Of a stretch of DNA of 64,000 bases, positions 33,302 through 64,000 are shown piece after piece. Source of the DNA: Fusarium oxysporum f. sp. lycopersici 4287 (taxonomy: Eukaryota; Ascomycota; Sordariomycetes; Hypocreales; Nectriaceae). Where the stretch lies: NCBI RefSeq assembly GCF_000149955.1, contig NC_030995.1, positions 558,001 through 622,000 of the forward strand, written 5' to 3'. A program made the position numbers and the translations under genes. Each line of letters starts with the position of its first letter. Position 1 is the first letter of the stretch. A model generated the notes under the pieces. That model did no database searches, was not told the origin of the DNA, and saw nothing but the letters and a program-made list of their open reading frames with translations.

Positions 33302-33895
33302 GAGGTATTTCCGATCTTTAGGTAATCTGAATTTGCCTGTTAATTATGCCTGAAATGTCAACAGCGAAGATCAAGGAAACGGATGAAAGACTTACCATTG
33401 TTTTACATTTCAAGGCAGCTCAACCACTTATATATATATCTAGTATAATTCTCCAGTGGTGTTTCAACTCGATATGCCTCTTTGTAAGTAAGCAGTCTTG
33501 ATTTTCTTGGAACCTGAATTGAGATATCTTATTCAATGATGTTGCTAGGGGCTTCGGGGGTCTCAAAATAATCAAGAGACCGGGCTTGGTTACTCCTGTC
33601 TCGTACCGCACAGTGGAATTAATAACTATATCTATTACTTCAAGAATTTGCTGCTCATATTAGTGTCATCGATTGTCTTGGCTGATCTCTCTCCCTGCCT
33701 TATCTAAATTAAGCTTTTAGAGTTGGGTGGCTTAGCGTCATGCGCCCCAGAATGAGGCGCAATTCGACCAAGGAATTTCAAGGCAGAGTGCCAGGCTAAT
33801 GATTCGTTTTCATCCTTAAATCAATCGACTCTGCTCAATCTTCTACTGGTTCCTACTCGCCACTGCTTCAACTTTGAGTGTTCAACGGTTTTTCG
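33302..33895. other. Intergenic region, no gene supported
   Basis: 3' flank of the amidotransferase gene and promoter of the GRDP-like gene. A 9-bp TATATATAT run lies at about 33430. No coding frame is supported. Confidence 0.4.
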
Positions 33896-35425
33896 ATGCC
33901 CCTGTTCAAGAACTTTCGCAGCGGCGCAAAGGTCGTGGACCAAGCGGTCAATCTGGATCCTCACACCTGGACATTGCCATCGTCATACAAACCCGCTCAG
34001 CCAGACGATAAACAAACAATCATTCCTGACCCAAGAGTCTTCTCAAATGTATTTTCTATTCCCTGTGAAACCGAAGCACAAAGTATTGAGACTCTATTGG
34101 CATACCCCGACGCGAGCCATGCTGCCGTACATCTGGCTCTTCTTGAATGTTTTCGCAACCTGAGGGCTGGCGCAAAGGCGCTTGACGTCGAGGTCATCCA
34201 ACCACCTTCATATGACGAAACCAAGAGTTCAATGCCAGCGTCGCCTTCAGAGCCTACACAACTTCCCGCATCCCAAAAATGGGATCTTCTCATAAAGCTC
34301 GCCGTTACTCGATTTACTACCTGGTGGTCTGGCATCGAGCTATTACTGAACCACGCGAATGCCTACTCGCATCATGGCGGCAGCCGTGCTGCTCTTCAGC
34401 TTACCAAAGACTATCTGCCACCGTTGGACATCCTACTCGTCTGGTACGCACTTATGCTGAGCTCAGAGGCTTATGATGCTGCCTGCGACGCACAGGGTGC
34501 CAATGCCACGCGCTTGAAAAATATTTGCTTCCCTTGGCCTGCCATTCGCGATGTCATCAATATGGACAAGATGCAGCTTGTACTCCCTCGATCTGCACAG
34601 AAGTTGTTCACTAATATCACCTCTCAACCATGCGACATTCTTGAGTATATCCAGAGTCCCCCGGCATATGCCGACATCGGCAAAGTGCGTATTGAGACGG
34701 ATTTATTTAGCGAAGTCAAGAGGCATGAAGATATCATGGAGGAATCCCATAAGCTTCTGTGGATACGTTCACCTGCCTTACAAGGGTCCCTGATCCGAGC
34801 GGGCTTGGAGTACCTCGACTTTCACTTGAGGGAGCCCAATGCAGTGGAAGAGGAGATGGTTTGTCATCAGTCCTTCGGCGTTAGGCTTTTCTGGAGGACG
34901 CACCGCCTGTTTCCAAGACAATACAAGGCCTTCCTGAAAGAGATTGGAGGCATACAGTCGGAGCCAACGCAGGGCCAGGACCTCAAACGAGATGCGAAGA
35001 TTCTTTTCGATATGGACGACCCATCGCCCATACAGGAGCACTGCCATTGCTGGACCTGCGAGCGCATTCGCGATGATATCCCAGAATTTGTCTACACAAA
35101 CCCTTCAGCAACAGCATCCTCTTCTACGAGCTTGACTACCATGCAGAAGCAAATCTCTTCGTTATCTGCCGAGAGTCTACTTCAGATTCAAGATGACCTA
35201 GGCTTCTATCTTGCAGTTGAGGACGCTCGCAGATCAGGGCTGCCATTGCCAACTCGGCCACCGACTACTACAGAGAAGGAAGCTGATAAGATTGCTAAAC
35301 AGAAACAAAAGGAGCTTGGATATAGACCGGGATTGAATGAGTATGTGGAAGTGTTACCTGATGGGAGACGCAAGATCCGGACGCATAAGTATGCAAGTGG
35401 AATGTGGGGTACGACTTGGGTTTGA
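33896..35425 (+). CDS. GRDP-like protein (glycine-rich domain-containing protein-like, PF07173 type)
   Basis: Intronless, 509 residues from ATG at 33896. The frame is open a little further upstream without an ATG. The segment LAVTRFTTWWSGIELLL, followed by YLPPLDILLVWYALMLSSEAY, then FPWPAIRDVI, matches the core pattern of the GRDP-like family, in which PPLDVLMVWHAHMLNP is typical. The C-terminus is basic with GYRPGLNEYVEVLPDGRRKI. In fungal annotations these are often mislabelled as dioxygenases. No enzyme motif is seen. The cellular role is unknown. A cluster of cysteines and histidines, HCHCWTCERI, lies near residue 383 and might bind a metal. Confidence 0.65.
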   Translation: MPLFKNFRSGAKVVDQAVNLDPHTWTLPSSYKPAQPDDKQTIIPDPRVFSNVFSIPCETEAQSIETLLAYPDASHAAVHLALLECFRNLRAGAKALDVEVIQPPSYDETKSSMPASPSEPTQLPASQKWDLLIKLAVTRFTTWWSGIELLLNHANAYSHHGGSRAALQLTKDYLPPLDILLVWYALMLSSEAYDAACDAQGANATRLKNICFPWPAIRDVINMDKMQLVLPRSAQKLFTNITSQPCDILEYIQSPPAYADIGKVRIETDLFSEVKRHEDIMEESHKLLWIRSPALQGSLIRAGLEYLDFHLREPNAVEEEMVCHQSFGVRLFWRTHRLFPRQYKAFLKEIGGIQSEPTQGQDLKRDAKILFDMDDPSPIQEHCHCWTCERIRDDIPEFVYTNPSATASSSTSLTTMQKQISSLSAESLLQIQDDLGFYLAVEDARRSGLPLPTRPPTTTEKEADKIAKQKQKELGYRPGLNEYVEVLPDGRRKIRTHKYASGMWGTTWV

Positions 35426-35676: not shown

Positions 35677-35834
35677 NNNNNNNNNNNNNNNNNNNNNNNN
35701 NNNNNNNNNNNNNNNNNNNNNNNNNNNNNNNNNNNNNNNNNNNNNNNNNNNNNNNNNNNNNNNNNNNNNNNNNNNNNNNNNNNNNNNNNNNNNNNNNNNN
35801 NNNNNNNNNNNNNNNNNNNNNNNNNNNNNNNNNN
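35677..35834. other. Assembly gap (158 N)
   Basis: A run of 158 N. It removes the 3' end of the ankyrin-subtilase gene. The true length is unknown. Confidence 0.99.
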
Positions 35835-38800
35835 AAATAAGCTGCTGCCCCTCATCCAGCCCAATACCACGAAGTACATTATACATATCATCGTGATTCG
35901 CAAGCCGCTCCAGATCCTCGGCGCTAACAGCCGTAGTGGACGGATGTTCCTTACCATGAACAACAGCAAGGTTGACGCAGTGTAATATAAGTGCTGCTAG
36001 ACCATCTGCCAAAGCCGTAGCCACAGATGAGCCAGTGCGTTCTTCAAAGTCATCTGGTAACGCCCCCTCTCGGTGTGGATTTCGCGATACTACCTTGTGG
36101 CCAGGTAAGATAAAACTTAGGCTCTGCGGGTTGCCTGTTGGACCCCATACGCGGCCGTCTGCAGTGGCTGCGCCGATGCGGAAGATGCGCCGCTGGTCGA
36201 AAGACCATGGATATTCGACTTCTGCGATGGCCCCGGTGTCGGCGGCGGCGCAGAAGAGGAGGATACCGGCGTCAAGAGCATCCTTGATAGCTTGGCGGAA
36301 AGTATTGACGCCATCGCGGTTCTCGACTGTTTCTTTGACCGTCCAGGACATTGAGATGATGTCCACCTTCTGATCTATCGCTGCCCTTACAGCCTATTTT
36401 TTGTTAGCCATGGAAACATGTTTGTTTCTAGATCTGTACTCACCAGAGCCGCGCTTTCAGCAGCGATGTATTCCTTCCCATGGGTCTGTGTCGCCAAGTT
36501 GAGACTTGTGTGCGTCTCAAGCTTATACACATAAAGCCTCGCCATCGGACATACCCTGCAAATCATATCCGCCATAACAGTTCCATGGCCCTTCGTAGAC
36601 CTATAGTAAGGGCTTGGTCCATTCTCGTGCGGGAAACCTCTGCTGAACGTTTCTCCACCCCAGATTTTACCACGAAGAGACTCAACATAGGGATCAGCGC
36701 CATCGTCGATGAGGGCGACCTTGATGCCATTCTGAGGCTTGACAAACTCAGAGCACGTATTTTGTAATTCATCTGCAAACTTGTCCATACAGTTCAACCA
36801 TCTGTTAGACTGTAGACTCATCTCATTGATGCCGCTTTGAGCTTTTGCAAATGCCCCTTCTCGGACGATGCGTTCACTTCCTGGGACATCTGCTTTGCAT
36901 CTAAAGACGAGTATGCGTCTTCCTCCCCCCGTATCGTCTTCGTCATTTGAAAGAGTCCTTTTCGGGTTTGCAGCTGCTGATTCGTTCAACCGCTCCTCGA
37001 AATCATTTGCGTACATAGTGATGCGATCGGCCGACTCCAATGCCTATCAAACATGCAATGTTAGTTTCACTCTGAAGGTAGGTCCTAGACTAGCACATAC
37101 CTGCTCTTCGCTGTATACCAGATGTACCGCCTCTAGCTTTTCTAGCTTCGCCAGCCCTTCAGGCTCACTCCAAGCTCTCAAAATGGCCCTGTTACCACTC
37201 CATCGCAAATAGAGCTGTCTCACATTCCGACAAGCAGTCAGGATTGTCTCTGGACACAAGTCAACCTTGGTCCAGTCAAGGATCTCCACCTCAAAAGGTC
37301 GAAGACAATCCTCGAGTGCCTTGTCGCTATGTGATGGATCTTTCAGGTCATCCACCATCACCTTAAGGATGTGTTTGACCCCCTTCCCCTTGAGCCAGTT
37401 GAAGAAAACAGTGAGATCATCCCTACCGCGTCCTTTATTTGACGTCTGCGTCCGATTCCTAGTTAGCCTTGCTTTTACAGCGGATACAGGAGGTTTCTGA
37501 AGCTCTATTCTTCGGAACGAAACATAGCGTAGAACTTGGTCAAAGTTGATATGGTCATAACTCTGTTTGAAAGAATCCTCATAGATCTCGGGTGGTGCCT
37601 CCGAGTAGTCGAAGCATAAGTTAATGTCTAAAACCAAGAGTTAGCATTGCCTAAATTAAGGGGGGTCTTGTCTCACTATTGAGATTCGCGCCATGAAGAA
37701 ACTTCACAGCTTTGAGCTGGTCTCTGCTGGCAGGCTTCGAATTGATCGTCAGAGTAGTCCGGAGATAATGTAGCTTGACTGCCTGGCGGATCTTCTCTGC
37801 GTATTCGCTCTTACGCTTCTCTTCCTGGGCCTGCTTTTCAACGTTCTCCATACCCGTTTGTCTTCTCTGTATAGGCTTGAAACCTTCGGGTGCCTCTCCC
37901 GGCGTTCTTCCGTTCTCAGCTCCATGGAGTCCATCTGCGTTTGAAGTGTGGCTTGAAGAGGATACATCTGTCTGTTCTGATCCTCGTGCATGAAGATTAT
38001 CAGGCCCTCGATGTAGCCCTCCGTGGCCGTCTTTGCCTGGCTGTTGAGAGATGCGACTTCTCCCACTAACATGCTCCAACCCTCCTTTGGGCCTGGATCC
38101 AGCGTGTTCACCCTCTTGACCTTGGTCTTCCCTGGATTCAACTTGCTTTCTCTCCCCAATACGAGCGGAAGCTGGTACCTCGAATTGTTTCCGCCAGAGA
38201 CGCTGTGTATGGTCTTGGTATTCATAGACGGATAGGTTTTGAGGTTCTTTGGTATACTTATCCAAGGCACTGTCTCCGTGAGCAAGAAGCGCCTCAACAA
38301 TCCTCAATTGTGCTTCTGATGCATATTTGTAGTCGACTGCCAGGTGCAAGGGTGTCAAGCCGCTTTGATCTGGGGCGCGAAGTGTCTCTTCGGATGCTCG
38401 TTTAATCAACTTTATGGTATACTGGTGCTGAAGGTTGTGATAGATGGCTGTATGTATGCAGTTCCTCCTGTGCTCACAAGTAATGCGGAGCAGTGAATCA
38501 AGGTAATCAATCGCTTTCTTCTCATCCAGGACCACTTCGATGAACGCATGGTTCTTTTTGGCGATAGCGGTATGCAGAGGAGTTTTGCTTGAATCGTCCA
38601 CGCGGTACAGCAAAGTCTTGTCGAACTTGATTACGCACCGAGTCAACGATTTGTGTCCCACTGTGTTTGCAATCATATGAAGGAGTGTCTGGTTTGAGTC
38701 TTTTGTCGATTTTGAGAGAAATTGCCCATACTTTTGTAAGAAGCTCTCCCGATTTTCTCTCTTGCCCAAGTTCAACTTCATGTTCCGAGCCTCATTCGTG

Positions 38801-38940
38801 ATGCTCTCAAAGGCAAAAAGCACCTCATCGTGGTTGGGTATCTTAGCGGGCTCCTCCTCAAAATCATCGTTCTCGTAGTCCTCATCGTCATCATCGCTAA
38901 CGACGCCTCTGACATCTGTTGTAAATGCAACTTTTGTCAT
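35835..38940 (-). CDS. Ankyrin-repeat / subtilisin-like serine protease (S8), C-terminus lost in gap
   Basis: Exons 38940-37677, 37627-37101, 37043-36444 and 36393 into the gap give at least 983 residues. The N-terminus is acidic, then ankyrin-type repeats lie at about residues 90-240 (TPLHTAIAKKNHAFIEVVL, SGLTPLHLAVDYKYASEAQL). A charged, low-complexity linker spans about 260-400, and a conserved-looking middle domain about 422-597. The protease domain follows with the triad in order: Asp710 in VALIDDGAD, His750 in KGHGTVMADM, Ser920 in GSSVATALADGLAAL. The oxyanion asparagine position (LLFCAAADTGA) carries no Asn, as far as I can align it. There is no signal peptide, so it should act inside the cell. 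Such S8 domains are known in fungi attached to or beside NLR proteins, for example the Podospora HET-Q2 type. It is divergent from the beta-rich gene, with 316 bp between the start codons. Confidence 0.85.
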
Positions 38941-39256
38941 CGTTCTGGTGTCAAATCTATTTGGGATGTATCTTTCTCAGCTCTTGTTTTGCATTTCAAT
39001 GACCCTCTGGTTGCTTATTTGCTTCTCTGCTTACCCGCAGCTGCCTGCAGCTACAGAAGACACGTCATTTATTAACCGCTCACCAGACTCAAGGATATCC
39101 ATAAATGAACAGGGGTGCAGAGAACCCCATTTCCAAGCGCATGTACCTCCTATGTACCAGATCAGGCTGTCGTGACGACCCCTCCACTTCTTGATCACAA
39201 ACTTCTACCATTTACAGAGTACTCACATCCTACCTATTGACGTCAACGCTCACACA
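38941..39256. promoter_or_regulatory. Shared divergent promoter of the subtilase and beta-rich genes
   Basis: 316 bp lie between the two start codons, so both genes must use this stretch. This suggests joint expression. I see no named operator motif. Confidence 0.5.
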
Positions 39257-40159
39257 ATGAGTACTGACCCTAATTACGACGTGGATGCCGAGGAAGAGAT
39301 CTCCTTTGGCATCGCACTTGCACCCAAAGGCGAAGAGGGGAGTGAGTTTCGCACTCAAAATGATCCATTGGATCCGTATCAGCGCGAGAACATCATCGAA
39401 CGCAAAGGCGCCGTGGACATTCGCTGCTCCAGTGTCGACATTATTCACGGCCTATTTGATCCCGATGGCGATGATTTGTGTACTCTAATTGTTCTCGAAT
39501 TTCGATTTGACCCGAGAAAACGAGCGCGACGCATCGCACATGTCGATATCGAGCTGAGGTTCTCCGCTAGCGAGAAAGGCGTAGCCGACCCCCAGGTTTT
39601 TGCTATCGCGCCCAACGGCAACTTGAGATTTGCTCAGACGACACAGACAGAGACAACGACTACTGGAGGCGACGTGACCCTTGGCGCAGGCGCGGCTGGA
39701 GTGGAATTAGGAAGCGGTCTGAAGTATGAGCGTGAAATTGCAAGAGAGATGAGCTACGCAGCGTCCGTCACAGGGTCCATCGATTTGCGCGGGCGAAACT
39801 ATGGCAAGCCAAACTGCGCGTCTTGGACGCTGCTGGAAAACCCTGAGACAAAGTCTGGTGTACCTGTCTCTATGAGAACCGCCATTCTGCTCAAGAGAAG
39901 GGACGAGGGACGTTTCCAGTGCGTGGTGACCGTCAACGCCAAAGCCGACTGGAGAACGTCGATGGAATGGCTTGTCGGCACCACGAAGCGTGATGACCCG
40001 GTACTACTTGATCCGACGCTGGCTCCAACAAGTGATAGGTACAAGGACATGGAGATGAAGCTTGGGGAACTAGATCTAAACGCTGTCTGCGATATCACCT
40101 CGGCCAACGTGATCGAGAACTCTGTGAAGACAAGTAAAATAGGTAATCAGAGCTCCTGA
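39257..40159 (+). CDS. Beta-rich protein of unknown family, partner of the subtilase
   Basis: Intronless, 300 residues from ATG at 39257. The frame is open upstream, but this is the first ATG. There is no signal peptide and no long hydrophobic helix. The first part (60-120) alternates in a beta pattern, with VLEFRFDPRKRARRIAHVDI and LRFSASEKGVADPQV. Residues about 133-177 form a striking Thr/Gly/Ala/Ser-rich stretch (TTTTGGDVTLGAGAAGVELG onward) with alternating small and hydrophobic residues, as in amphipathic beta hairpins. The remainder again looks like beta strands, with MRTAILLKRRDEGRFQCVVT. I do not recognise the family. Its position suggests that it may be the substrate or target of the neighbouring protease. 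That is inference. Confidence 0.6.
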   Translation: MSTDPNYDVDAEEEISFGIALAPKGEEGSEFRTQNDPLDPYQRENIIERKGAVDIRCSSVDIIHGLFDPDGDDLCTLIVLEFRFDPRKRARRIAHVDIELRFSASEKGVADPQVFAIAPNGNLRFAQTTQTETTTTGGDVTLGAGAAGVELGSGLKYEREIAREMSYAASVTGSIDLRGRNYGKPNCASWTLLENPETKSGVPVSMRTAILLKRRDEGRFQCVVTVNAKADWRTSMEWLVGTTKRDDPVLLDPTLAPTSDRYKDMEMKLGELDLNAVCDITSANVIENSVKTSKIGNQSS

Positions 40160-40891
40160 AGCAAATTCTATAGCATTGACTCTCTAGTTGACTTGAATAC
40201 CACAGACCACCTAGACAGGTTACTCAGAACTTGATCGAAAGTGTACATCTCAGGTACCAACTGAATCACGCATTGGCAACTTTTTGCGAACATCCTTGGC
40301 GGAGCTTTGACCCATTCCATCCTTAAAAGTGGAGATAGGCTTACTCGCCTAGCAATAGCTTAATCCTGTTCGAAAATCCGTGGTGGAAGATCCTATGATT
40401 TGCTCATATATCGGAAGGATTACTCCATCCAGGAACCCAGCCTCCACATTGACAAGGATTACCCAGCCTCCCAAAGCTCTCTCTGCTTATCTATAGGTCA
40501 ATCTTCGGGAGCTATTGCCAGTTGTCGTTCAGCTCATGCAGGTCGTAAGCAGCCCTCGGGGACCAAGATTAACTTAGGGCCTTTATCCTAAGTGACAAAA
40601 AGATTTAGGTAAATTTAGTATAGACTTAGGGGTGCTTTAGATTGGTTATTTTTATTACTTAGGATGAAGACCCTCTATTTCCCTGCCTCCCCTTGGTATC
40701 ACAAATTTCGATACGAGGGGTCAACAATCATAGGCTTACGGACGATCCACGGCCGATCAGCCCATTTCACGGTGACTGAGTCAGCCTTTGACACTACCGC
40801 TCCTCATGATGACTAGGATCCTATCAACTTCCAGTTTCTAGAAACTAGCCTGTAGTTTGAATCAACATCGCAGGTGCCTGCCGAAGTCGCC
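40160..40891. other. Intergenic region with a MITE-like element
   Basis: It holds the 3' flank of the beta-rich gene, the clearest copy of the short inverted-repeat element (40585-40665) and the promoter of the NLR-like gene. No gene is seen. Confidence 0.45.
40585..40665 (+). repeat. MITE-like element with 15-bp terminal inverted repeats (type copy)
   Basis: The left end atcctaagtgacaaaaa and the right end tttttattacttaggat are inverted repeats with two mismatches. The whole element is 81 bp and AT-rich. Related copies lie at 26327-26394, 46722-46812 and 58613-58672. Confidence 0.65.
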
Positions 40892-43800
40892 ATGGAACAA
40901 GAGGAACGGTCGCTCGATGCTATGGAGACATCTAGCAATACCATGGATAACGATTCTCCATCCGCTGACCTGGGTCTCTCGATCGATACAACCGAAGAAT
41001 ATGAGGCAAGCGAAAAGAAATTCGAGTAAGATAAGCTTACCTTCTTTCACCAGCCATATTTCTAACAAAGCTTGCTATAGTATTGTAGCAATCCATGGCC
41101 TCGTTGGTCCGGGAGGCAAGCCATGGGGCTCAAGTAAGACCAACACCTGGATTCAGGGCTTGGCGGCGCAGATGAACTGGGAAGTCCGCATTATTCAGTA
41201 TGCCTATGATGCCACAAAAATAACAGAGGCTACATATCCCGAGGAGGCTATTTCTTCTGAGGCCTCTACGCTTCTTCAAAAGCTTAGCGAGTTGAGGACA
41301 GACCAGCAAACGGTGAGTATCCTTGAGAATTCGGGTCTGAACGATAACCAACTGAGAGACTCTAGCCGTTACCTATAGCGTTCTTTGGCCACGACATAGG
41401 AGGGATTATCGCGAAGAAGGTTGGTTGGGATGTAATCCATTTCGTTGTGTTCATGCTAACATGATATCAGGCTTTGATACTAGCCAGTCGATATGACAGT
41501 GGACATACTGATATTAGCTACTCAACGAAACTTTTGGTATGGAACATAAAGATCCAAGTTTCTATGAGCTATCCTTAACCTCCTGCAGATGTTCTTCGGC
41601 TGTCCACACAGAACCCTGGATACACATCAAGACATCGAGATTCTTGCTACCAGGCTTGACGTGTTGAAACCAGCAGACTCAACAGCGACTAGCCTGAATA
41701 TGAAATGTCTCGCGAGATCAATCATTGATGTAAACAATTCGTTCTTGAACACAAGAGTCCTAACGCGCGCCAACGTTATCAATATCATTTCATCAAAGAC
41801 AGATCCTGCTGAAAAGGTAAGTTGAAAAGTAGATTTTATGTTGCATTGATGATACTGACTGGCTTACAGGTCTTTGACAAATACACGGCAGCACTTGGAG
41901 TTCCCATGGAGAAGGTTTCACTCATTGACATGTCTCATAACGAGTTGAACGAGGAACCTGAAGGTTATGCTCCGTACGAAGGCTTTCAAACCAAGAGAAT
42001 TTCATCTTGTAATTCAGCAAGCAGTGAAACCTCTGCCAGAAGAAACCTGCTGACATAAATTACAGTTCCCTGGCAGAACGATAAGCTATCTCGTGTTATG
42101 GAAGCCATAATGCTCCAGGCACCTCCAATCTATCCATTCAAGTTCAACACAACCCGCGGATTCGGCTGGATTGCTGAGCACGATACCATGATCAAATGGC
42201 TGAAGTCTTGGGGTCTCGCTCTTCTGCATATTCACGGCACCTCCAGCATTTCTAACGTGGCTCAGCATGTGTATGAAGGAATAGTAGATCGTGGAAAGAG
42301 CACGACATTCCGAGCCATTCTCTACTTCAAATTTGACAAACACGATATCCGCCGGAATTCCATCGGGGCCATGGCAAACTCCTTCTTGCTCCAGATTCTC
42401 AGTCAGATAAGAGAATCCCCTAACGATAAGATGCCAGACATAGAACCACCTGATTTCTCAAATTGTTGGACCAATAAAGATGCCTTCTTCTTTTTGGAAA
42501 AGCTTATGAGGGATATAACAACCCACGGCGAAATTCACTGGATCATTGATGGGCTCGATCAGTGTGATGGCAGCAGTGGTTTGTTCTTGTCCATGGTCTC
42601 TGATATGACCAAGAATTCTGAGCAGCATTTCAAGATTCTGGTGACGACCGTTGATGACAGTCAGATCCGCGAGGCTCTATCGGAGTTTCCTTCAATTGAC
42701 TTGAGAGAGCACCCGCCGACAGCTGATGTTATCGAGAGCGTTGTGCTCGAATTCATGACTGAGCTGTGCCACGTGCGACCTCAGTATCGCCACGGCGAGG
42801 GAAAGATACGACGATTGTTGGATTCTTGCAGTGATGATGACTTGCTGCGGCGCCTCCTACTCGAATGGCTCCTGGTAGCCCCTTGTACATCAATCAAGTC
42901 TTCGCTAGAGCGGGATCTCACATCACTTTCACCCCTTTCGCCGGCTAAGATATTCGAAAGATGCTTGCAGGCGGTGCCGGAAAACTCGCGACCTTGGGCC
43001 CGAAAAGTCTTGATGTGGATGGTGCTGTCTTTTCGACCGTTGACTCCTGAAGAACTGGGAAGTGCACTCAGCCTCGGTACCTCAACGGACCTGGTGCCTG
43101 ATCAGGAGACATATGGAGATCTCATGTGGGATATTGAAAACTGTCTTGGACCTATGATAATACTAGAGAATGGTCACGTTCAATTTCGCCATCCAGCTGC
43201 TCGGGACTTCTTGACGACTAGCCATGACGCTTCCGACAGAAACCAGCCTTGGTACGCTTGGAACTCTTCGGAAGAAGGCCATCGAGAGATCACCGACGCT
43301 TGTGTTAGATATCTCACCTTGTCTTCTACCCAAGACAAGATCCTAGCAGCTTGCCGAACATGTCCTGTTGATCAACGAATATTTGAATACCCATCAGATA
43401 TCACACCATATGCTGTCGAATTCTGGCCACTGCACTACCAACGAGGTCACTCATCAGTATCTCCAAAGCTAGAATCTTTCAACATCGCAAGTTTCTTCGA
43501 CGACGAGACCGCACCCCGGCGTTGGGCTGCAGCCAGATGGTACCTTTCGAATCCTCATATCAGGTCCGACCGAGTCTTCCTGTCACATTTACCAATAATG
43601 GCGTCTATAGGCGACGAGGACTTGGCTAAAGCCTACGTCCAGTCCCAAGAACCTGACGAACGTGATGTTTCCGAGGCGCTTATTGAGGCATCGATATACG
43701 GACATAGCGATGTTGTCAAGTTACTCCTCCACAAGTCAAGCGCAAATGCAGATATCTGCCTCGAAGCTATAATGGCCGCAGGACGGTCGGCAGAATTGAA

Positions 43801-46547
43801 AACACTGGGTATCTTGTTAGCGTATGCCACTGAAAATCTACACATAGCTAAGTGGCCTGGCACGCTTGCTTCGCGACTGGCCTATCTCGGTTCATCTGAG
43901 CACTTAAAGACCATCTTACAAGCTGGAGCGGACGCGAACTCGACAGATCCAGATTGTTCGCCACCTCTTCACTGCGCCATCGTCAGAGACGAGCCTGCAA
44001 TTCTCGACACCCTCATAGAGCACGGAGCTGACCCTGCTGTCATCAACCCCAACTGGGTAGATACGCCGCCCATAGTGGTAGCTGGCAAGTATGGCCGAGC
44101 GAAGATCATCGACAGGCTAGCCAAAGCAGCACTCGTCGAAGCCCAGGACCATGAAGGCAGGAACGCTCTATGGTATGCAGGAGGTAGAGGCCATCACGTG
44201 GTGTTTCAAGCCCTCGTCAAAGCTGGAGCGAACACAGAAGTCCTCACAGCCAACGTGAGGGAGCTTCGACCTGCCCTGATTCCCATTTCAGGGGCTCCCT
44301 ATCCAAAGTGCCTCAAGTCAGTGCTTGATGCTGGCCTGGATATCAATTCAAAGTTGAGAGAAATCCACTCATTCCACGCCTTGGGCATAGCGGCACGATC
44401 GGGTCATGTTGAGATTTGCCGTATGCTACTTGACCACGGCACGTGTAAAGAGTTTGATGACGATTCTGCTCTTATCCACGCTACAAGAGCGAATAATCTT
44501 GAGATAGTGAACATGCTGCTTGAAGAGGGTCATAAAGTTGATGTGCAGCTAGACGATACCCCAGATCATGGCACGCCTCTCGTGGCGGCTGCCAGAGCAG
44601 GGTATAAAGACATAGTTACAGCTCTCCTACAGAAGGGAGCCAGCGTCAACTACGTTGCTCCCAAAGAAATCACGCCTTTGAGGTCCGCCGTCCTGGGAGG
44701 TCAACCGACAATAGCCAAGACGTTCATTGATGCTGGGGCGGATATGAATGCCGTTAACGACATAGGACGCTCCGCAATCCACTCGAGTTACCATCGCCCA
44801 GATTGCATGAAGGTTCTTGTCGATGCCGGGGCCGACATCAACTTACCGAGTCCAGATGGCACGCCATTTTACCTCGCCTCATTTTTTAACCAGACAAAGG
44901 TGGTTGAGTTGCTTCTTGAACACAAACCAGATCTTGAAACCAGGTGCCCCGATGGGGGCTTTATTGACTCGGGCTATACGCCTCTTCATTGTGCAGCATC
45001 TTGCGGCTACAATGAGCTACTCCGGCTGTTGTTGGAAAAGGGTGCTGACATTGAGGCAAGAACTCCAAAAGGTGGAACACCTCTGATCCTAGCCGTGGCC
45101 ACCAACAATGAAGAGAGTGTCAAGATCCTGCTAGAGTATAAGCTAGACATCGACGCGGTTGACATATGGGGAGGGTCTGCAATCTTCTGTCTTCCTAATC
45201 CTGCAAATCTATCTGTCGTCAGACGCTTGATAAATCGTGGGGCTAGTCTGACGATCCGGAACAACGAAAAGTATACCCCCCTGGGACGAGCCGTCGTGAA
45301 CGGAGACCTTCCGTTGGTGCAAATGCTCTCTTCTCAAAAAGTTGACTTGAACGCGGTAGCTTCTGAGGATGGGACTGCTCTGCACATTGCAACAGAGAAG
45401 TGCAACGTTGATATCGTCAAAGTGCTCGTCGAGAAGGGTGCTAGCCCCGATGTTGCCAACTCCTGGATGTATGGCTCACCGCTACAGAGATTATTTGAGA
45501 AATATTATACTTCTGCGGAGAATAAGGATATAATTGCCCGACATCTAATCAATGACGCTGGCGCCGACGTCAATGTTCGTGGCGGCAATATGGGATCGGT
45601 GTTGAGCGCAGCGATCCTGAGTGGTTCTATAGACATGATCAAACTCATACTCAAGAAAGGTGCTGACATTGGCTGGCAAGACCTCCACGGGCGACGGCCG
45701 ATACACTACGCAGCCTTGAAAACAGCTGAGCATTTCAGACTACTGCTCGAGTCAAGTGGCGATGATGAAGAACGTCTTGGCATCACTACGAAAACCAAGT
45801 CTGGCTTGACAGTGCTACATTTTGCTGCGGCGACCGGAAGATCTGATCTTGTCGAATTGGTGCTCTCTCATACCAGCGGGATTATATCTATCAATGAGCC
45901 TGATGACGATGGTTGGACGCCTCTGCTCTGGGCATGTCGCGTGTGTGAAAGTTGGGGCACGCCCAAGGAAATCAGTCCCGAAATCGTGAAACTTCTTCTG
46001 GATCGTGGAGCAGACCCATCGGTTCGAGGTCGGACCTGCGATGACAGGGAATGGTCGCCGCTCAAGATGGCCAGATTCCATGGCGCATCGCAGGAAGTAA
46101 TAGAGTTATTAACAGCAAGTCCTAGTAAGAAAAGGGAGGATGACTGGAAGTCCAAGTTCCATGTTTCCAAGAAGGCAGCGCGAACTACATGGTTCTGCGA
46201 CTTGTGCCTCTTTGTAAGTGTCCCCCGACTTCAATGTACCCATTTTACTAACCTATCAGCACGTCTATGGCATGTTATACTTCTGTAACGGTTGCGAGCT
46301 CTTGTATGGGTTGTGTTTCAAGTGCTATCGTTATAGAGAGGAGGTTCATCCGTATCACGATAAATGGGAGGAGCGAGGTCCAGAGTTTGTTGACGATGAT
46401 GAAGAGGAGGAGGAGGAGAAGGATGAGGAAGAGGATGATCCGAAGAGTTCGCCGGGAATTGAGCAGGTGCAGGATGATGATTCAGAGGGAGACTGGTCGA
46501 ATGATGAAGCTGAGGGGGATGAAAGGGCCAAGGGAGAGAGTAAATAA
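40892..46547 (+). CDS. NLR-like protein: alpha/beta-hydrolase-like, degenerate NTPase, ankyrin repeats, ZZ-like finger
   Basis: Eight exons (40892-41025, 41081-41312, 41366-41419, 41471-41536, 41589-41816, 41870-42008, 42066-46213, 46260-46547) close to 1,762 residues. After a 44-residue tail comes a SesB-like hydrolase fold (about 45-230): IVAIHGLVGPGGKPWG, then FFGHDIGGIIAKKALILASR, where Asp132 stands at the usual nucleophile serine. A STAND/NACHT-like module follows (about 300-650): after the strand ALLHIHG the Walker A loop is replaced by TSSISNVA, while Walker B is kept as HWIIDGLDQCDG (446-449), and the winged-helix-like MWMVLSFRPLTPEELG follows. Ankyrin repeats fill about 800-1640. 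The end is WFCDLCLF joined to HVYGMLYFCNGCELLYGLCF and a CxxC pair, a ZZ-like zinc finger, then an acidic tail. It probably acts as a cytoplasmic sensor. The neighbouring protease and beta-rich genes suggest a shared locus. Confidence 0.85.
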
Positions 46548-47979: not shown

Positions 47980-49620
47980 ATGAAAGGCTCAGCCACTCTC
48001 GCTTTTGCGCTCACTCACTTCAGTGCTGCTTCGCAGCTCGTTTGGCCCTCAAAATGGGATGAGGTCGAAGATCTTCTGTACATGCAAGGAGGATTCAACA
48101 AGAGAGGTTTCGCTGATGGTAAGCAATAAACCTTTCTATGCCATAAAATCCATCAACAATTTGCAGCTTTAAGAACTTGCGAGTTTGGAAGCAATGTCCC
48201 CGGAACCCAGAACACGGCCGAATGGCTCCGAACAGCTTTCCACGATGCCATTACACACGATGCCAAAGCGGGAACAGGTGGTTTGGACGCGTCCATCTAC
48301 TGGGAGTCTTCACGACCCGAAAACCCCGGAAAAGCCTTCAACAATACCTTCGGGTTCTTCAGCGGCTTCCACAACCCCCGCGCTACTGCTTCCGATCTCA
48401 CAGCCCTGGGAACTGTTCTCGCCGTTGGAGCTTGTAATGGCCCCAGGATTCCCTTCCGAGCTGGCCGTATCGATGCATACAAGGCTGGCCCAGCTGGTGT
48501 TCCCGAGCCTTCGACAAACCTAAAGGATACCTTTGCTGCTTTCACAAAGGCTGGTTTTACTAAGGAGGAGATGACTGCTATGGTTGCTTGTGGTCATGCT
48601 ATTGGCGGCGTGCATAGCGTTGACTTTCCTGAGATTGTTGGCATCAAGGCTGATCCCAACAACGATACCAACGTGCCTTTCCAGAAGGATGTTTCTTCTT
48701 TCCATAACGGCATCGTCACAGAGTACTTGGCCGGCACGTCCAAGAATCCTCTTGTCGCTTCAAAGAACGCCACCTTCCACTCTGATAAGCGAATATTCGA
48801 TAATGACAAGGCTACTATGAAGAAGCTCTCCACCAAGGCTGGTTTCAACAGCATGTGTGCTGACATCCTCACCCGCATGATCGATACCGTGCCCAAGAGC
48901 GTGCAGCTCACTCCCGTCCTCGAGGCTTACGATGTCCGCCCTTACATCACCGAGCTGTCTCTTAATAACAAAAACAAGATACATTTCACGGGCTCGGTTC
49001 GAGTCAGAATCACAAACAACATTCGTGATAACAATGACCTTGCTATCAACCTCATCTGCGTTGGCCGAGACGGCAAGAAGGTCACTGTGCCTACACAGCA
49101 GGTGACCTTCCAGGGCGGTACATCTTCCGGTGCTGGAGAAGTCTTTGCCAACTTCGAGTTCGACACCACCATGGACGCTAAGAACGGTATCACGAAGTTC
49201 TTCATCCAGGAGGTCAAGCCCTCCACCAAGGCAACCGTCACCCACGACAACCAGAAGACCGGCGGCTACAAGGTTGATGATACCGTCCTTTACCAGCTTC
49301 AGCAATCCTGTGCCGTGCTTGAGAAGCTTCCTAACGCTCCTCTCGTCGTCACAGCCATGGTTCGAGATGCCCGCGCCAAGGACGCCCTGACCCTTCGCGT
49401 CGCTCACAAGAAACCCGTCAAGGGTTCTATCGTCCCCAGGTTCCAGACGGCGATCACCAACTTCAAGGCTACTGGCAAGAAGTCCAGCGGATACACTGGA
49501 TTCCAGGCGAAGACCATGTTCGAGGAGCAGAGCACTTACTTTGACATTGTCTTGGGTGGAAGTCCCGCTTCAGGTGTCCAGTTCCTTTCTTCTCAGGCTA
49601 TGCCTGCTCAGTGTTCATAA
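47980..49620 (+). CDS. Secreted fungal heme peroxidase (class II-like)
   Basis: Two exons (47980-48118, 48167-49620) close to 530 residues. The N-terminus MKGSATLAFALTHFSAAS is a signal peptide, followed by a possible KR processing site (FNKRGF). The plant/fungal peroxidase signature is clear: WLRTAFHDAITHD has the distal arginine and histidine, GTGGLDASIYWE a calcium/heme-pocket region, and MVACGHAIGGVHS the proximal histidine. It should oxidise phenolic or other donors with hydrogen peroxide outside the cell. The roughly 290 residues after the proximal histidine are longer than in classical lignin peroxidases and include a beta-type domain (TGSVRVRITNNIRDNNDLAI). Donor specificity cannot be read. 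Intact. Confidence 0.88.
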
Positions 49621-61900: not shown

Positions 61901-64000
61901 TCCTGAGTCAAGCTCTGTGCCTGAGGCTAGCACCTACCTTGGCCGAGATTATAGCACAAAGTCCAACGTCGCCTTTGTCAACTCGTTCCTCGATGGCCAT
62001 ATCGCAGGCGCTGGATGGAAGATTGCTTCTCCCACCACCTTCACTGGTACCTTCACTGAGGGTAACAACACTGGTCCTGGCTGGGACTCTTCTGCTCGCA
62101 TTTCTGCTGCAACCATTATCAGCGATACTTCTTCCTTCAGCGCTGCCGGTATCTTGGGCAGTGATGCTTGGATTGATAAGGCTGCCATTGCTCCCTTCAA
62201 GGGATGGCCTGGTTCCGTCTACGGCAAAGACGCTGCTAGCACCACAACCACTTCGGCTGCGACTACAGCTTCAAGCACTACAAGTGCTACCGCTGCCGGT
62301 GCTACGTTGACCGTTGCTCCCTCCCCTACCGGAAATCAGTACAAGACTGTGGCCTCTGCCCTTGCTGCCATTCCCAACGACGGCGATGACTACACCATCT
62401 TCGTCAAGGCGGGTTCTTACAACGAGCAACTTACCTTCACTCGCTCTAGCGGTCACGTTACCATTCGCGGTGAGACAAGCTTCGAGAATGACTTCACACA
62501 GAACGAGGTTCTCATCTGGTTCAAGCTGGGCTACTCGACTGGTGCATCCCGCAACGAAGAGACCCCCGTTCTCTTCTGGAAGACTACCTCAGCCTCTGCT
62601 GGTCTCTCGCTGTACAACCTCAACTTCACCAATACCTATCCTCAGACTAGCGACACAGCTGCTCTCGCTGCTGACTTCTTTGGCAACATGGCTGCGTATG
62701 GATGTGCTTTCGATGGCTTCCAGGATACTCTACTTGTCAACCAGGGCATTCAGGTCTTCTCCAACTCCTATATAGCTGGATCAGTGGATTTTAGTATGTT
62801 CTTTTCTTTCACTCTCTTACGTTCCTGCTGACAATGTGAATAGTCTGGGGCTATAGCAAGGCCTTCTTCCACCAGTGCTATATTGCATCCAACACCGCCA
62901 ATGCCTACATCACCGCAAACAACCGCAAGAGTTCTTCTTGGGCCGGTGGTTTCATCTTCGATAAGTGCAAGGTCACATATACTGACAGCTACGGATCTAA
63001 CTTCGGTACGACGTCACTGGGTCGCCCCTGGTCCCAGTATGCCCTTGTTGTGTACATGAACTCTTTCCTTGACAAGCATATCTCTCCTCAGGGTTGGGCT
63101 ACCTGGTCTTCCAGTAACCCTCAGACATCGGTAAGTTTAGAGGAGACGACTTTCTAAGTTTAGAGGAGACGTCTTTCTAAGTTTAGATGAGGCGTCTTTC
63201 TAAGTTTAGAGGAGACGTCTTTCTAAGTTTAGAGGAGACGTCTTTCTAAGTTTACCATATGGCTTGCTGATAATGTCCAGAACGTGCTTTTTGGAGGGGC
63301 TCAAGACAAGGTCAGCCCTGTTTCAGGTGCAAGATTTGTTGAAGATTTCCTGGTCGATGACGGCGAAAAGCCTCCCGCTGGGGAAGTGTTTGCAAATTCA
63401 TTGGCAGCACCAGCTGGCTTGATATGAAGGCATACAGCCTTGTACCCAGCTACGCCATTGACGGCTCTGACACAGCTACCGACCCTGAGACTGATGACAC
63501 TTGGCCGGTGCATCCTTCTGACGGCACCACTCCTCCCAAGAACGCTGTCACTGTGTCCGTCGGAGGAGAAAAGTCGGGATCTTACTCCACTCTCACCGAT
63601 GCTCTCAAGAGTCTCCCCAAGGACTCAACACCCCAGACCATCTTCATCTACGCCGGAACATATGAGGAGCAGGTCCCTGCGATCAACCGACCAGGACCTG
63701 TCACTATCATCGGATACACCGAGAGCGACCCAGGAAAGACCTATACCAGCAATCAGGTCACCATCACCCAAGCCAAGGGTCTCTCGGTTGCTGGTACTAT
63801 TCCCGCTGGCCGTAGCAACGCGGATACAGCCACCATCGCGACAGCCAGCACTAAGATCGCCTTTTACAACGTCAAGTTCGTCAACTCTGATAACTTGGAT
63901 GGCGCGACACCCAGCTATGTTACTCTCGCTGCCAGTATCTACGGAAATGACATCGGATTCTATGGCTGCTCCTTCATCGGCTGGCAGGACACTCTTCTTA
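58914..64000 (+). CDS. Secreted mucin-like protein with four tandem pectin-methylesterase (CE8) domains, runs off the window
   Basis: Exons 58914-62793, 62844-63130 and from 63281. The start MARLSAWLLLPLVCGSSLAK is a signal peptide. About residues 110-380 are Ser/Thr-rich with repeated SSESSAGSDTTSGSATSD-like blocks, probably a glycosylated stalk. Four CE8-like beta-helix domains follow. Domain 1 (about 380-690) keeps GTYTENV but lacks QDTL, DFxWG and LGRPW. Domain 2 (about 785-1105) has QGTL for QDTL, keeps DFVWG and has LGRD. Domain 3 (about 1125-1390) has GFQDTLL, DFIWG and LGRPW, so it should be active. Domain 4 (from about 63540) has GTYEEQV and GWQDTLL and is cut by the window end. After the third exon start the frame reaches TGA near 63427. 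The family-like continuation GSTSWLDMKAYSLVPSYAID is in another frame, so one or more indels lie at about 63340-63400. It acts on methyl-esterified pectin in plant cell walls. The frame breaks may be real or assembly faults. Confidence 0.8.
63132..63254 (+). repeat. 23-bp tandem repeat inside an intron
   Basis: Five full units of taagtttagaggagacgtc plus tttc (starts 63132, 63155, 63178, 63201, 63224) and a partial sixth fill most of the 150-bp intron 63131-63280. The first unit overlaps the splice donor GTAAGT. In later units the donor G is C (CTAAGT). Confidence 0.9.

Follow-up and report, generated by a model that had tools for sequence, protein, structure and literature searches.

The window analysed here is a stretch of 64,000 nucleotides from Fusarium oxysporum f. 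sp. lycopersici 4287 (contig NC_030995.1, positions 558,001 to 622,000). Positions 35,677 to 46,547 of the window hold an ankyrin-S8 protease gene, a divergently read gene for a beta-rich protein of 300 residues (here called the beta protein), and an NLR-like gene on the same strand as the latter. The features, in window coordinates, are the following.

35837 to 38940, minus strand: ankyrin-S8 protease gene, visible part (gene model with ATG at 38940; homologues)
37628-37676, 37044-37100, and 36394-36443, minus strand: three GT-AG introns of the protease gene model
38275 to 38703, minus strand: ankyrin-repeat region, protease residues about 80 to 222 (Ank_2, 3.1e-11; Ank, 9e-9)
35980 to 36731, minus strand: S8 catalytic domain, protease residues about 702 to 935, with one internal intron (limits from the homologue P0144)
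38941 to 39256, no strand: gap of 316 bp common to both head-to-head genes (distance between the two ATGs)
39257 to 40159, plus strand: beta protein gene, 300 amino acids, proposed executioner (ORF, homologues, and two structure models)
39257 to 39376, plus strand: flexible tail at the N terminus of the beta protein, residues 1 to 40, candidate cleavage site or latch (low pLDDT, conservation)
39380 to 40030, plus strand: predicted leukocidin-like body, residues 42 to 258 (fold matches)
39617 to 39784, plus strand: long central hairpin, residues 121 to 176, candidate membrane stem (predicted strands 121-141 and 154-176)
40892 to 46547, plus strand: NLR-like gene with a hydrolase-like part, a NACHT domain (NPHP3_N), and ankyrin repeats (ATG at 40892; candidate gene model)
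41081 to 41963, plus strand: alpha/beta-hydrolase (SesB-like) part, with introns inside and HDIGG replacing the GxSxG elbow (Pfam hydrolase families below cut-off)
42167 to 42646, plus strand: NACHT-type domain, NPHP3_N (8e-16, 59.1 bits)

In the gene model, the protease reads for 982 codons from its ATG up to a stretch of 158 bases masked as N (35677 to 35834), because of which its 3' end is invisible in the window. Over the part searched, it is 99% identical to F. oxysporum database entries and 99% identical to the database protein P0144, whose S8 domain is above the Pfam cut-off (5.4e-17). The ankyrin repeats exceed the Pfam cut-offs. Taken singly, one S8 exon of the window scored 18.5 bits, under the Pfam cut-off of 21.8, and the following exon (35980 to 36426) scored 39.2 bits, above it; the Pfam scan gave no family above cut-off for the middle region of the protein. 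When 120 homologues from the database were aligned with four proteases of the genome itself, the triad columns proved to be kept in 124 (Asp710), 122 (His750), and 123 (Ser920) of the 124 sequences, and the catalytic triad, as predicted from the alignment, is intact. The putative column of the oxyanion-hole Asn holds Asp in 122 of the 124 aligned proteases. An S8 domain with an Asp-His-Ser triad and an ankyrin repeat domain are both features of the Q2L (HET-Q2-like) sensor proteases. As to a further Q2L trait, a gasdermin gene next door, no gasdermin-like ORF adjoins the S8 gene at the four loci where it is paired with a beta gene.

The beta protein matched no Pfam family at an E value of ≤1. 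Its closest relatives among the matches listed are those of F. fujikuroi and F. proliferatum (93%), and the homologues listed come from Fusarium, Gaeumannomyces, relatives of Xylaria and Podospora, Aspergillus, Phlyctema, and Cadophora, as well as from Lasiodiplodia (Dothideomycetes) and the lichen fungus Letharia (Lecanoromycetes). Podospora itself has homologues for the pair (P0035 and P0170). No relative was confirmed among bacterial and archaeal genome contigs or among viral contigs. In a hydropathy scan, the N terminus was acidic and hydrophilic, and neither a hydrophobic N-terminal signal nor a secretion signal peptide of the leukocidin type was found, the top 19-residue hydropathy being 0.94 at residue 62. 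The N-terminal tail has pLDDT values under 50 for residues 1 to 29 and a mean of 58 for residues 31 to 40. Residues 21 to 40 are conserved among the homologues, and the C-terminal end is variable.

The NLR-like gene begins at an ATG 732 bp past the stop of the beta gene. Besides NPHP3_N, its ORF from 42098 to 46288 encodes numerous ankyrin repeats, and a short ORF that overlaps it extends to 46547; the layout of fungal NLRs, with a central nucleotide-binding domain and C-terminal ankyrin repeats, is present. An in-frame TAA (42056 to 42058) parts the hydrolase-like and NACHT regions unless a candidate GT-AG intron found by eye (41964 to 42065) is spliced, which would bridge the TAA and join the two. 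For the N-terminal part, a curated label as a hydrolase was rejected, the Pfam match being below cut-off. In serine hydrolases, the nucleophilic Ser usually sits in a GxSxG elbow. At the three loci where the hydrolase-like motif was seen, it reads HDIGG (window, 41081 to 41963), HDIGG (L014, around 8580), and HDFGG (L015, around 8520), and, with HD[IF]GG where GxSxG is usual, this part is perhaps not active as a serine lipase. The cassette is flanked by an ORF at 33878 to 35425, with a GRDP-like family match slightly under cut-off, and by a haem peroxidase ORF at 48283 to 49620 (6e-16). A sequence-only reading of this DNA had described a protease with ankyrin repeats and an S8 domain, a divergent spacing of 316 bp to a 300-residue beta-rich protein, and a large NLR-like ankyrin protein 0.7 kb farther on. 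All of this holds, with the spacing being exact and the beta protein being all-beta in both models, and the hydrolase-like part is an addition to that description.

The two predicted models of the beta protein (pLDDT 74.9 and 75.9, medium confidence), which have most of their alignment rows in common, show the leukocidin-type layout of a beta-sandwich cap and a central stem hairpin. For the first model, all 32 Foldseek matches at an E value of ≤1e-3 are leukocidin-type pore formers, with a clear gap below this family (from 1.6e-4 to 9e-3 at the next entry), and for the second model the best 50 of 82 Foldseek matches are all of this type. Comparison by VIA gave leukocidin-type structures in all of the 50 matches listed for either model, and no enzyme or gasdermin fold is among the matches listed by Foldseek or VIA. 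The core structural alignments to the leukocidin type cover 148 to 156 residues at 2.9 to 3.4 Å; TM-scores are low (about 0.2 to 0.36), and rmsd values are 6 to 9 Å for the longer alignments by VIA. Based on these models, the beta protein is predicted to have the fold of the leukocidin/alpha-haemolysin pore formers.

Sequence profiles do not add to this prediction. Matches to PF07968 (leukocidin) in 2 of 68 family members, the commonest family there, first looked supportive of leukocidin membership. Because a scan of 142 members again gave only 2 (best E value 0.065, failing the curated cut-off), while two unrelated families among the 16 matched reached 5 and 4 members, these matches are regarded as noise, and membership by sequence was rejected. 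An NCBIfam scan of the 68 members listed no haemolysin model and nothing relevant, and a PF07968 search across the genome gave no match, which is uninformative, as the control genomes gave none either. Hydrophobic/polar alternation in the whole hairpin strands is not above that of shuffles (mean z of 0.61 and 0.38), and two strands of the body alternate more (z of 1.77 and 2.73). The tip-side halves of the hairpin strands have mean z values of 2.0 and 0.85, so that one alternates strongly and the other weakly, the division into tip-side and far halves having been picked after the weak whole-strand result. The weak overall amphipathicity, the low TM-scores, the medium pLDDT, and the lack of a profile link would all suit a beta-sandwich whose role is one of ordinary binding, with the leukocidin match as a chance likeness of long hairpins; the database label of the homologue P0035 for an arrestin-like domain (LDB19) also fits such a role. 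However, one structural family tops all four listings, with the clear gap and the core alignments given above, and this explanation is considered quite improbable.

The beta protein is also not detectably a gasdermin. Profiles of 68 and 142 beta members gave 0 matches at an E value of ≤10 against PDB sequences, whereas single gasdermin-like proteins from the same genome, used as positive controls, match RCD-1 structures. In addition, hhalign gave a probability of 0.1% for the beta family against one gasdermin-like protein, and gasdermin membership is therefore unsupported by sequence. The beta gene does show one gasdermin-type trait, clustering with a protease gene, which is a common trait and no proof of membership. 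The shared partner class, the similar length, and the frequency of gasdermins beside S8 genes in this genome could be explained by a highly divergent gasdermin, but the profile and hhalign results, together with leukocidins as the best matches of the model, leave this explanation very little probability.

A search of the 61.2-Mb genome with the beta protein revealed five copies of its gene, including that of the window. The others are at C4:370212 (39% identity to the window copy), C13:558647 (31%), C4:4727334 (L016, 4430 to 5476; 33%, with stops), and C3:5049065 (25%, E value 0.0025; 1.5e-49 in a profile search of the locus). An S8 gene lies head-to-head with the beta gene at 4 of the 5 copies. 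At L016, where the beta copy is broken, there is no S8 gene within the 10 kb fetched, and the broken gene perhaps reflects decay after partner loss. Downstream of the beta gene, L014 has three pieces similar to the NLR-like gene (E values of 2e-6, 1e-13, and 8e-6) and L015 has one (3e-7), and therefore, with the window, the three-gene layout is found at three of the five loci. The four intact beta proteins share 16 to 37% identity with one another and their proteases 20 to 38%, which indicates that the linkage of the two genes is old. Transposase-like ORFs, recognised by eye, are located beside the most divergent S8-beta pair (L017, 2 to 1174 and 1634 to 3583).

Outside this genome, adjacency was judged by two proxies, a contig of equal size and consecutive locus tags, with 36 named beta homologues compared with 119 of the 120 listed protease rows. 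For 14 of the 36, a listed S8 homologue is on a contig of exactly equal size, and five of these contigs are just 38 to 155 kb long; the other 22 showed no match, which is uninformative either way given the clustering at 90% identity and the comparison of the best 120 of 234 proteases. With draft tags, taken as nonserial, left out of the count, the serial locus tags of the beta and protease genes are consecutive in all five comparable cases, three in Fusarium (IL306_013724/5, F53441_1807/6, and FPOAC1_003800/1), one in Gaeumannomyces (RB598_005241/2), and one in Lasiodiplodia of the Dothideomycetes (LTHEOB_4668/7). The distances among proteases follow those among their beta partners (r = 0.964 over 18 pairs; 0.925 over 14 other genomes; 0.955 without Fusarium orthologues), and none of 2000 label shuffles reached these correlations. 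Common species descent accounts for part of the correlation. The paralogues within one genome point to joint duplication of the beta and protease genes as well. The protease-beta pair is a conserved unit in this genome and, as judged by the proxies, in other fungi.

Fourteen further S8 loci, picked nonrandomly among weaker matches, were fetched from the genome as an internal control, and the protease-family profile finds S8 at 11 of them. A gasdermin-like ORF adjoins the S8 gene at nine of these 11 loci and a beta gene at none. Two of the nine gasdermin-like proteins match RCD-1 structures (5.5e-26 and 5.9e-8), and the other seven calls rest on similarity to these two. Four of the nine loci are near-identical copies, and therefore six are distinct. 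In these copies (L033, L034, L036, and L037, located on C3 twice, C6, and C70), the region with the S8 and gasdermin-like genes is 99.98 to 100% identical over 9.8 to 9.9 kb and spans nearly the whole fetched stretch, which looks as if it had been duplicated recently or formed a mobile segment with a death pair. At L025 (2560 to 5695, C8) and L030 (4591 to 5469, C11), the S8 gene has neither partner in the stretch fetched; the L025 protease is up to 40% identical to that of the window. An S8 gene with both a gasdermin-like and a beta partner was present at no fetched locus. In the window, the sole gasdermin-profile match is a weak one to a 64-amino-acid ORF (63233 to 63424; E value 0.00083) 23 kb from the pair, and this candidate was rejected, with no PDB sequence match. 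An S8-gasdermin pair (L024) and an S8-beta-NLR cassette (L014) are about 14 kb apart at C4:346301-373500, possibly forming a small defence island.

Thus, one genome keeps both S8 genes with gasdermin-like neighbours and S8 genes with the beta family. The strongest argument for the beta protein as an executioner is that it stands where other S8 loci have a gasdermin-like gene. The tight pairing and co-diversification are equally expected of an enzyme and its inhibitor, and the beta protein might instead be a dedicated inhibitor, scaffold, or substrate-adaptor (antitoxin-like) of a protease that is itself the effector. This is unlikely, since the predicted fold is of the pore-former type and the neighbours at the other S8 loci are gasdermin-like, a family known as a protease substrate (PMC10989679).

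The cassette probably serves cytosolic regulated cell death, with a leukocidin-fold executioner released by a sensor protease. The ankyrin-S8 protease would act as sensor and switch for a presumed trigger, and the beta protein, with the leukocidin/alpha-haemolysin fold, would be a pore former that is soluble and unsecreted and stays inactive until cut by the protease. The cut would most likely be in the flexible N-terminal tail or the variable C-terminal end. Once freed, the body would oligomerise and, with its long central hairpin extended, make a beta-barrel in the membrane of the cell itself, with death as the presumed outcome. At the three loci that have it, the NLR-like hydrolase-NACHT-ankyrin gene may be a second sensor or regulator. 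This scheme is modelled on the action of HET-Q2 on the gasdermin HET-Q1, for which the primary paper is Clave et al. 2022. The literature states that the HET-Q2 protease takes about 40 C-terminal residues off HET-Q1 (PMC10989679), that protease genes form clusters with about 80% or more of the gasdermin genes of fungi, and that these proteases are mostly S8 enzymes, many with repeat domains (PMC12881547, PMC10197012). PMC12881547 also raises the possibility that gasdermin two-gene clusters take part in other processes, such as secretion, and describes an allorecognition role of gasdermin pairs. By analogy, the pair studied here could be a nonlethal regulated membrane channel, with a task such as secretion, the sealing of compartments, or the repair of membranes, or an allorecognition locus only. 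The spread of the pair over several fungal classes is unlike a fast-turnover het locus alone, and these roles taken together are considered rather improbable.

With slightly less confidence than for protease-released cell death at this locus, but still on balance, it is proposed that gasdermins are not the sole pore-forming executioners triggered by proteases in ascomycetes, and that a second such family exists. Its members would have a cytosolic leukocidin fold and would be co-inherited with an ankyrin-S8 sensor and sometimes with an NLR-like gene. S8 sensors would have swapped executioners of unrelated fold under the same gene-pair logic, with both sets kept in one genome. The sequence-only reading had suggested an analogous protease-effector pair with an executor of a family it could not name, to be checked by adjacency in other genomes and by structural comparison with pore formers. 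Neither of the two outcomes that it named as refuting was obtained. The pair is supported by the conserved adjacency here and, by proxy, in other fungi, and by predicted matches to beta-hairpin pore formers rather than enzymes among the matches listed; the profile and hhalign results agree with a family distinct from gasdermins. In a literature search, which covered few subscription papers and no preprints, no report of a leukocidin-fold fungal executioner was among the entries listed, and the words leukocidin and hemolysin have 0 occurrences in the available portions of PMC12881547, PMC10197012, PMC9815663, and PMC12258605. The design of a protease plus a pore former is already known, and the executioner family appears to be new.

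If the proposal is true, a fold of secreted bacterial toxins would act in fungi as an intracellular, protease-gated death effector at loci resembling those of gasdermin pairs, and a protease plus a pore former would be a general design with an exchangeable executioner. The pairing hints at a second built-in cell-death switch in fungi beside the gasdermin one, and, if it is real, experiments in yeast and laboratory fungi would become possible on a family that has neither a name nor a Pfam entry.

Among known systems, the HET-Q1/HET-Q2 and Q2L clusters are similar in having an ankyrin S8 sensor-like protease adjoining a small putative membrane-active protein, but the partner here is not detectably a gasdermin. 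The arrangement also differs, with the beta and S8 genes being head-to-head, whereas the gasdermin-like ORFs at L024, L026, L027, L029, L033, L034, L036, and L037 are on the 3' side of the protease gene and on the opposite strand. The leukocidin/alpha-haemolysin toxins share with the beta protein a cap-like beta body and a long central hairpin, both predicted here; unlike these toxins, the beta protein is fungal, shows no signal peptide, is paired with a protease, and has no sequence-profile link to them. In fungal NLR clusters of two or three genes, such as nwd2/het-S (PMC12881547), an NLR-like gene is likewise beside a gene for a putative membrane-active effector, whereas the cluster described here includes a protease as well. 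In the protease-linked bacterial gasdermins, named in the same review (PMC12881547), a protease and a pore former are also side by side, as predicted for the pair in the window, but in another kingdom and with another fold.
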